64,000 nt of DNA from an uncultured Burkholderiales bacterium (lineage in GTDB: Bacteria > Pseudomonadota > Gammaproteobacteria > Burkholderiales > Burkholderiaceae_A): assembly GCA_937864175.1 (NCBI GenBank), contig CALMJH010000012.1, positions 1 to 64,000 of the forward strand, in the 5' to 3' direction. The translations under genes were made by a program, and so were the position numbers. The notes beneath the pieces were generated by a model that worked only from the letters and a program-made list of their open reading frames with translations, was not told where the DNA came from and made no database searches. Positions 6,581 to 8,944 of this stretch are shown here, in pieces (position 1 is the first letter of the stretch; every line of letters starts with the position of its first letter).

Positions 6581-6609
6581 CTCGCGGTCCTTTCTGGTCT
6601 GAAGTGGAG

Positions 6610-6690
6610 TCGCGAGCGCCGTTGCGGTTGCCCGCAGACTTGCGGGCCACTCGAGCCTGGGAGGACAAGCCTCTCGCAACGCTCCTCGAG
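6610..6690 (-). promoter_or_regulatory. SAH riboswitch (S-adenosylhomocysteine aptamer) in the ahcY 5' leader
   Basis: Minus strand CTCGAGGAGCGTTGCGAGAGGCTTGTCCTCCCAGGCTCGAGTGGCCCGCAAGTCTGCGGGCAACCGCAACGGCGCTCGCGAC: GAGCG/CGCTC P1, conserved CCAGGCTCG and GCAACGGCGCTC blocks, CTCGAG/CTCGAG pseudoknot potential, 7-bp hairpin GCCCGCA-agtc-TGCGGGC. Confidence 0.93.
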
Positions 6691-6755
6691 TGAGTTCCCA
6701 TTTTCGCCCACAGACGGAGAGTGGTCAAGGCCACCCCCCCATCCGGGGTCTTGGC

Positions 6756-7919
6756 CTACCGGCAGTGGGCTTTGAGGGCCTCGGCCTTGTCCGTGGCCTC
6801 CCAGGTAAATTCAGGCTCTTCCCGGCCGAAGTGGCCGTAGGCTGCGGTCTTTCGGTAGATGGGCCGCAGCAGGTCGAGCATCTGGACAATGCCTTTTGGC
6901 CGCAGGTCAAAGACCTCCTGGACTGCCGCCGCGATGGTCTCGTCAGGCACCAGGCCTGTGCCTTGTGTGGTGACCCAGACCGAGGTGGGCCGGGCCACGC
7001 CAATGGCGTAGCTCACCTGAACCAGGGCCTTCTTGGCAAGGCCTGCAGCCACGATGTTTTTGGCCACATAGCGGCCCGCGTAGGCGGCCGACCGGTCGAC
7101 CTTCGAGGGGTCTTTGCCAGAGAAGGCGCCGCCGCCGTGTGGGGCCGCACCACCGTAGGTGTCGACCACAATCTTGCGACCCGTCAGGCCGCAGTCGCCC
7201 TGAGGGCCGCCAATTACAAACCGACCGGTGGGATTCACCAGATACTGGATCGAACCCTTGACCAGGTGCTTGGGAAGAATGGGCTTGATGATTTCTTCAA
7301 TCACCGCCTCGCGCAGCTGCTCCAGGGAGACCTCGGGTGCATGCTGGGTCGACAAGACCACCGTGTCAATGCTGTCGGGCCGACCGTCGACATACCGAAG
7401 CGTCACCTGCGACTTGGCATCGGGTCTGAGCCAAGGCAGCCGGCCATCACGGCGGACCAGCGACTGGCGCTCGACGAGCCGGTGGGAGAGGTGAATCGCG
7501 GCGGGCATGAGCTCTGGTGTCTCATCACAGGCGTAGCCAAACATCAGGCCCTGGTCACCAGCACCCTGGTCCAGGTCGTTGTCAAAGGCCTTGTTGACGC
7601 CTTGGGCGATGTCAGGACTCTGCTTGTCATAGGCCACCAGCACCGCACAGCCTTTGTAGTCAATGCCGAATTCCGTGTTGTCGTAGCCGATGCCTTTGAT
7701 GGTCTCCCGAGCGACCTGGATGTAGTCGACGTTTGCCTGGGTTGTGATTTCGCCGGCCAGCACCACCAGACCGGTGTTGCAGAGGGTCTCGGCAGCAACG
7801 CGCGAGGTGGGGTCCTGGGCCAGGATGGCGTCCAAGATGGCATCAGAGATTTGATCGGCGACCTTGTCGGGATGGCCTTCGGAGACGGATTCCGAGGTGA
7901 AAAAATAGTCTTGCGACAT
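6756..7919 (-). CDS. metK: S-adenosylmethionine synthetase
   Basis: [67 protein letters not shown]. Confidence 0.98.
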
Positions 7920-8012
7920 CTGTAGTCCTTTTCGAGGCAGACACCTTGCGGCTTGTCTCTAAAGGATTACTCTAAAGGTCGCAGGACTCTCTCGAGCCCC
8001 CTGCGGGCGCTT
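7920..8012 (-). promoter_or_regulatory. Candidate structured cis-regulatory leader of metK with SD-sequestering alternative pairings
   Basis: Manual folding: GCAGG(8004-8000)/CCTGC(7985-7981) hairpin with GAGA loop versus AGTCCT(7988-7983)/AGGACT(7929-7924) that covers the SD; internal hairpin AGACA-ag-CC-GCAA-GG-TGTCT (7958-7939). Confidence 0.4.
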
Positions 8013-8083
8013 TAGCGGTATTTAGAAGACAATCGCCCCGCAAGTTGTCGATTAAATCGGCGATAAGAATCACTATAGACCCT

Positions 8084-8944
8084 ATGACCGCCTTCTTTCA
8101 ACTTGGCGCCCATCTGCCGCTCTGGCTGCTCAGGCGCCTGGGCAGCCTCCTCGGCCATGCCATCTGGTGGCTCTCACCCGCCTATCGACGAATGTTCCGG
8201 GCCAACTGGGCGCTCGCCATGGCTGGCGACCAGGCAAGCCCCTCGCAGCGGGCCCGCCAGCACCGGGCTATTGGGCAGGCCGGCCAGATGGTCTTGGAGT
8301 TGCCAAAGATCTGGTGCGATGACCAGGCCTGGCAGGCCATGGCCCTGGTTGGGCTCGAGGCCTTGACGGCGGCACAGGCACGAGGCCGCGGGGTGATTGT
8401 GCTTACGCCCCACCTGGGAGCCTTCGAGCTGGCCCCCCGGGTTCTGGGGCGCCATCACCCGATGACGGTGCTCTACCGACCGGCGCGTCAGCCAGCAGTC
8501 GAGCGACTGCTTCAACGGCTGCGTCCAACCGCCCAGGTGGCCACAGCGCCCGCCAACGCGGCGGGCGTGCGACAGCTGCTCAGAGCCCTTCGGTCTGGCC
8601 AAGTCATTGGCATGCTGCCCGACCAGGTGCCCTCCAAGGGCGATGGCCTCTGGGCCCCCTTTTTCGGCCGACCCGCCTACACCATGGTGCTGCCTCTGCG
8701 GCTAGCCCAGACGACCGGGGCCAGCCTGATCTGGGCCCTGGCCCAGAGGGTGCCAGGGGGCTGGCAGCTTAGCCTGGAGGACTGGCGGCCCGAGGGACTC
8801 GACCAGCCCGACACGCCGCTACAGACCCTTGTGGAGGCGCTCAACCGCAAGACCGAAGAGGTCATTCTTCGCGCACCCGACCAATACCTCTGGGCCTATA
8901 ACCGATACAAGAATCCGCAGGCCGGTGGGGCACCGACCGCATGA
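8084..8944 (+). CDS. Lipid A biosynthesis acyltransferase (LpxL/HtrB family)
   Basis: IVLTPHLGAFELAPRVLG (H-x4-E context), MTVLYRPARQP. Confidence 0.88.
   Translation: MTAFFQLGAHLPLWLLRRLGSLLGHAIWWLSPAYRRMFRANWALAMAGDQASPSQRARQHRAIGQAGQMVLELPKIWCDDQAWQAMALVGLEALTAAQARGRGVIVLTPHLGAFELAPRVLGRHHPMTVLYRPARQPAVERLLQRLRPTAQVATAPANAAGVRQLLRALRSGQVIGMLPDQVPSKGDGLWAPFFGRPAYTMVLPLRLAQTTGASLIWALAQRVPGGWQLSLEDWRPEGLDQPDTPLQTLVEALNRKTEEVILRAPDQYLWAYNRYKNPQAGGAPTA

Follow-up and report, generated by a model that had tools for sequence, protein, structure and literature searches.

A SAM-II-type aptamer missed by Rfam and a putative translational switch upstream of metK in an uncultured Burkholderiales bacterium

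The metK leader and its conserved pseudoknot

The window analysed here, a 64,000-nt stretch of DNA from an uncultured Burkholderiales bacterium, carries metK on its minus strand (6756-7919, with the ATG at 7919), and the encoded protein of 387 aa is a methionine adenosyltransferase (TIGR01034, E=2.8e-179), as the preliminary description of the leader interval 7920-8012 had supposed. The Shine-Dalgarno (SD) sequence, AAAAGGA, occupies 7926-7932. Further upstream, a pattern search located a sigma-70-like promoter, TTGAAA-18-TATAGT (8072-8101, minus strand; one found against 0.1 expected in shuffles), the -35 element of which lies within the 5' end of a divergent acyltransferase gene, and a TATAGT-like box is retained upstream of the motif described below in the metK leaders of relatives. 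Because the aptamer block directly follows this promoter (8101-8072), transcription of metK probably starts at the base of helix P1 (about 8066), that is, upstream of 7990, so that the segment AGTCCT, part of the switch originally proposed, would be included in the transcript. No terminator-like site was found by sequence search in 7880-8160. The leader together with the first codons has a predicted folding energy of -39.7 kcal/mol (z=-2.70), lower than in 198 of 200 dinucleotide shuffles. A scan of the whole window against Rfam recovered one tRNA and one SAH riboswitch upstream of ahcY; the latter (RF01057, 54.8 bits) is located at 6607-6693 on the minus strand, between metK and ahcY. The Rfam check of the metK leader gave no match to any known class, the scans of the flagged interval and of the motif contained nothing relevant, and a plasmid similarity search returned coding metK matches only.

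Comparison of metK upstream regions, with relatives collected by the MetK protein alone, revealed a near-invariant block at 8064-8008 of the minus strand, which reads ATCGCC GATTTAA TCG ACAACTTGC GG GGCGAT ... AAATACC GCTAAAG CG. The block starts about 50 nt 5' of the flagged 8012-7920, and the linker that makes up the flagged interval varies even within the genus, in contrast to the block. Thus, the elements noted in the interval are real, but the interval begins too late and missed the conserved aptamer; the conservation and covariation in relatives that had been proposed as a check are found in the aptamer.

The block folds as an H-type pseudoknot that consists of P1 and a helix between the loop and the 3' strand. 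P1 is formed by AUCGCC (8059-8064) and GGCGAU (8032-8037), and four of its five counted pairs have changed on both sides. GAUUUAA (8052-8058) aligns as the third strand of the predicted SAM-binding triplex; the role of its U's is taken from the SAM-V structure (PMC6061858), and GAUUU is present also in the metZ copies that Rfam recognises. The 5' strand of the pseudoknot, CUUGCGG (8038-8044), is separated by the 3' strand of P1 and a loop with a conserved AAAU (8019-8031) from its own 3' strand, CCGCUAAAG with a conserved CG (8008-8018), and the last two pairs of this helix covary, changing from G-C to A-U in 18 and 17 sequences of an alignment of 76. In these 76 sequences, 98.2% of the cells of the consensus structure are paired, compared to 35-45% when the partners are slid, and the covariation score is 0.221 vs 0.114 in shuffles, with changes on both sides in P1 as well as in the pseudoknot. 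Because the pattern scan fixed TTAA, ACAACTTGC and GCTAAAGCG, these stretches are invariant there by construction, and several core columns carry no weight in the structure test. The P2a helix, GAC/GUC, is broken in the window's own sequence.

Class assignment and distribution

The preliminary description judged the leader to be unlike SAM-II; the sensor just outside the flagged interval, however, is of the SAM-II type. All parts of the SAM-II core, namely, GAUUU[A/G]A, CUUGC, AAAU and GCUAAA, are found in the metK leader, and a gene of methionine/SAM metabolism, metK itself, lies downstream. A first model, R1, recovers four matches in relatives that exceed the cut-off of the Rfam SAM-II (SAM_alpha) model RF00521; R1 contains sequences from the window's own family, which introduces circularity, and R2 and R3 were therefore built without them. 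R2 comprises 22 copies of the non-metK type, mostly upstream of metZ, metH, metX and MATE transporter genes, with the window's metK excluded and at least four over-cut-off RF00521 matches included; it picks out 8002-8066 with 38.6 bits (E=4.8e-10), the next match in the window scoring 9.7 bits. R3, derived from metK leaders outside the own family, matches the own leader with E=6e-13. RF00521 itself (Rfam 15) yields no match at E<=10 in 81 bases, and the element is absent from the list of its matches. This failure is a limit of the model, because the SAM-II copy of Pelagibacter likewise reaches no more than 23 bits. Furthermore, many sub-threshold RF00521 matches in Burkholderiales coincide with R1 matches upstream of met genes, so the Rfam cut-off hides true members. 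It appears, from the sequence comparisons, that the aptamer before metK is SAM-II by descent, a riboswitch that Rfam overlooks. Among the other families, SAM-V (RF01826) and SAM/SAH (RF01727) gave no match in the scans of the window, the interval or the motif, and the SAM-II long-loop model (RF01726) gave only weak, scattered matches in 30 relatives.

The likeness to SAM-II extends to the H-type pseudoknot, the GAUUUAA/GAUUUGA third strand, CUUGC/GCUAAA, the AAAU loop, the methionine-cycle genes downstream and both couplings that were predicted for this class in 2007 (PMC2258182), namely, a homopurine G-G or A-A pair in the loop and an additional Watson-Crick pair where the P1 loop ends. The homopurine position is A-A in 25 copies, G-G in 16 and otherwise in 2; alignment columns 31-57, which fit the second coupling under a mapping of columns that we infer, hold GC in 56 sequences, AU in 18 and other combinations in 2. 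The differences from classical SAM-II are that a base unpaired or bulged next to GCUAAA is paired here, giving a 2-bp extension, that the homopurine pair is A-A and not G-G, that the gene is metK, that the platform looks translational and that RF00521 is silent. The SAM-II copies that Rfam calls in relatives, upstream of metZ, read GCGCCGATTTGATATCAGCTTGCGGGCGCGTTAAAAATACCGCTAAAGCG, and the own metK copy departs from them chiefly in having A-A where they have G-G, in one additional pseudoknot pair and in the sequence of P1. The tandem SAM-II/SAM-V arrangement contains a nearly identical core in two loci (L065 and L170), GCGCCGAGUUAAGACAACUUGCGGGCGC...AAAUCCAGCUAAAGCG, and its SAM-II half binds SAM when isolated (PMC11508383); it differs in that the window lacks a SAM-V partner and in the gene, metY there and metK here. 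SAM-V shares the kind of binding core, with U:A.U triples and a GCUAAA-like strand, but sequence and model do not match, and the SD that is in P2a there lies about 80 nt further on here. The betaproteobacterial metXZ element (PMC4239095), a pseudoknot built from two pairs of conserved regions and situated before metX or metZ, was described with terminators and not at metK; given that the present motif also precedes metX and metZ, the two are probably one RNA. Finally, SAM/SAH riboswitches are likewise small pseudoknots upstream of metK, but are confined to Rhodobacterales (PMC2864571, PMC4239095).

The pattern scan of GTDB genomes recovered at least 120 loci, at least 100 of which precede metK. 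Among the matches listed (at least 120), 107 are from Betaproteobacteria, two each from Hydrogenophilales and Pelagibacterales, and one each from Lysobacterales and Bacteroidota, the others being unplaced; 116 of 120 among the matches listed fall outside Alpha-/Gammaproteobacteria and Bacteroidota. With relatives added, 123 of the 144 copies among the matches listed have, by a strict motif, a MetK reading frame no more than 700 nt away, and at least three further copies of a variant motif precede MetK. In the unbiased set, that is, relatives gathered by MetK protein alone without the motif, the element precedes metK in the own genome and nine of its ten congeners (the metK of the tenth is cut by a contig end), in all seven genomes of a second genus and in about 9 of 35 genomes from other families; in a third, A+T-rich genus of the same family, it was found upstream of metK in none of eight genomes (L025 and L026; among G012-G024). 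Genes downstream of other copies are metZ, metH, metX and metY, and in Pelagibacteraceae the copies lie directly 5' of Rfam SAM-V elements, as in the known SAM-II/SAM-V tandem, RF00521 scoring only 23 bits there.

The open-access papers covered by our survey contain no description of a SAM-II element preceding betaproteobacterial metK; an earlier description elsewhere is possible. The switch had been put forward as undescribed: it is not a new class, and the term holds only in the sense of a metK-linked SAM-II group that is missed by Rfam 15 and is without an open-access report. The Rfam SAM-II model thus misses a common group, including copies before the central SAM-making enzyme, and the present motif offers a testable answer to the control of metK in betaproteobacteria, a gap left by a large survey (PMC4239095).

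The expression platform and a proposed switch

Downstream of the aptamer, the flagged interval is most likely the expression platform (8007-7920), or output arm, of the SAM-II-type switch, able to bury the SD. The helices described there initially turned out to be only partly right. GCAGG (8004-8000) and CCTGC (7985-7981) are present and can be extended to CGCAGG/CCTGCG, as is CTC-GAGA-GAG. In the folding predictions, CGCAGG (8000-8005), immediately 3' of the aptamer, pairs with CCUGCG (7980-7985) with a probability of about 0.8 in prefixes that end before the SD, and this state fits an anti-aptamer hairpin. AGTCCT (7988-7983), AGGACT (7929-7924) and AGACA/TGTCT around GCAA also occur where they had been placed, but pairing of AGTCCT with AGGACT has a probability of about 0 in the full leader and is absent from the nearest relative (L003), and the AGACA/TGTCT hairpin reaches only about 0.05 in the full leader. 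AGTCCT/AGGACT is accordingly rejected as the main SD-burying helix, and UCCUUU/AAAGGA is predicted instead.

The two direct repeats, CCTTTAGAG, begin at 7978 and 7965 as first described, and both had been assigned a CCTTT that could pair with AAAGG of the SD. Repeat 2 with a preceding U (CCUUUAGAG; 7957-7966) provides the predicted anti-SD strand: UCCUUU (7966-7961) pairs with AAAGGA (7931-7926) at 0.83-0.99 when the aptamer is locked. The nearest relative keeps one CCTTTAGAG together with UCCUUU/AAAGGA. Repeat 1 (CCUUUAGAG; 7970-7978) holds CUUUAG (7977-7972), a candidate anti-aptamer strand that is fully complementary to CUAAAG of the aptamer (8015-8010). The predicted probability of this pair is 0.90-0.97 in prefixes ending at 7945-7925, 0.15 at 7919 and 0.016 at 7900. 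Across 120 leaders, CTTTAG occurs at the linker position in the own genome and L003 only, with a prefix probability of 0.1 in L003. In addition, UGCGAC (7983-7978) is predicted to pair with GUCGCA of the first codons (7917-7912).

Complementarity of linkers to the SD exceeds that of shuffles in 120 metK leaders (p=2e-10, an optimistic value because the leaders are related). In a set of 67 non-redundant metK leaders, the aptamer tail that immediately follows GCUAAAG shows complementarity both to the linker (p=1.2e-9) and to the SD region (p=2.8e-7), that of control segments being much less or absent; in 87 of 120 leaders, locking the aptamer leaves the SD paired with this tail. In model terms, a translational OFF switch would be arranged in this way. 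The 120 leaders show no enrichment of complementarity to GCUAAAGCG alone (p=0.61), and general anti-aptamer pairing with this segment in all leaders was rejected; likewise rejected was an equilibrium change in SD exposure as the signature of switching, which does not exceed that with shuffled linkers in the 120 leaders (p=0.62). In the energy model, the SD exposure of L003 drops from 0.57 to 0.25 on locking the aptamer. In the own leader at equilibrium, the SD stays buried in either state of the aptamer (0.04 unpaired when locked, 0.05 when free), and switching here therefore would need kinetic, co-transcriptional control. The CUAAAG/CUUUAG pairing, strong before the start codon and then yielding to the SD-burying fold, suggests such a kinetic switch.

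Taken together, SAM-II homology, covariation, the conserved place before metK, the capacity to bury the SD and the absence of a terminator make up the computed support, and it is probable that the metK mRNA opens with a SAM-II-type aptamer (8064-8008) followed by a translational platform (8007-7920). The general idea of competing structures in the leader, one of which buries the SD in the manner of a translational switch that responds to SAM, has gained computational support, and such a switch for metK is likely; its most likely role would be SAM-dependent repression of metK translation. In this scheme, the mRNA starting at about 8066 would present the aptamer first and the platform next. With SAM bound, GCUAAAG would be held in the pseudoknot, while UCCUUU and UGCGAC would pair with the SD and the first codons, shutting off MetK synthesis. 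In the hypothetical ON state, without SAM, the 3' strand of the aptamer and its tail would pair with the linker (CUAAAG/CUUUAG, CGCAGG/CCUGCG), so that the anti-SD strand would be occupied while the SD emerges and MetK would be made; this anti-aptamer hairpin, which could not form with SAM, would persist during ribosome loading until, with the coding region transcribed, the SD-burying fold took over. We infer that SAM is the ligand and that it turns expression off, and likewise the precise helix of the ON state. If this scheme holds, metK would be sensed by SAM through SAM-II and ahcY by SAH through its riboswitch, and both sides of the methyl cycle would thus be RNA-controlled in the window.

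Alternative readings and related arrangements

The same aptamer could act on transcription, by termination, and not on translation. SAM-II in alpha- and betaproteobacteria is mostly tied to terminators (PMC2258182), as is the betaproteobacterial metXZ element (PMC4239095), but 7880-8160 contains no terminator-like site, although Rho-dependent termination is compatible with the sequence, and SD-complementary sequence is conserved in the linkers; we consider this mode unlikely. That the flagged hairpins act on their own, as a switch or regulatory leader that does not depend on the upstream aptamer, would accord with the low-energy fold (z=-2.70) and the conserved anti-SD pairing. Between congeneric species, however, the upstream aptamer is conserved and the linker sequence is not, and the interval has no Rfam match, which makes this extremely improbable.

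The fold might also be SAM-II-like with another or a relaxed ligand, for instance, both SAM and SAH. In most betaproteobacterial metK copies, GAGUUAA replaces the GAUUUAA of the own sequence and of classical SAM-II, and a C stands where SAM-V has A18 (PMC6061858); SAM/SAH riboswitches, too, are found before metK, in Rhodobacterales (PMC2864571). Nevertheless, the own sequence retains GAUUUAA, the C is found also in Rfam-called SAM-II copies, and the neighbouring ahcY already has an SAH riboswitch of its own, so that a relaxed ligand seems very unlikely. A related and rather doubtful proposition is that the metK-linked copies constitute a SAM-II subclass of their own in betaproteobacteria, in which the pocket is altered (most species having G in place of the first U of the third strand), the pseudoknot is extended, the ligand preference differs from that of classical SAM-II and the RNA also serves as the second sensor in MATE tandems. 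We favour a SAM-II-type aptamer coupled to a translational platform.

Tandem SAM-II-type copies precede genes of MATE-family efflux transporters at L182:193-355, L183:203-442, L184:3332-3533 and L186:216-444, and further tandems before MATE transporter genes occur in L094, L116, L132, L141 and L166. The order is mostly a classical G-G copy and then a metK-like A-A copy, and the scanned transporters downstream belong to TIGR00797, making these tandems a candidate SAM logic gate on a transporter. At L185:205-406, tandem copies lie upstream of an open reading frame that by eye resembles an HD-domain protein (no NCBIfam match), and a second, divergent metK (G053:C22:47932-49068) is located 1.2 kb beyond it. 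L152 carries, about 1 kb apart, a SAM-I/IV riboswitch (RF01725, 51.2 bits) together with a copy of the SAM-II type (523-625 and 1554-1614).
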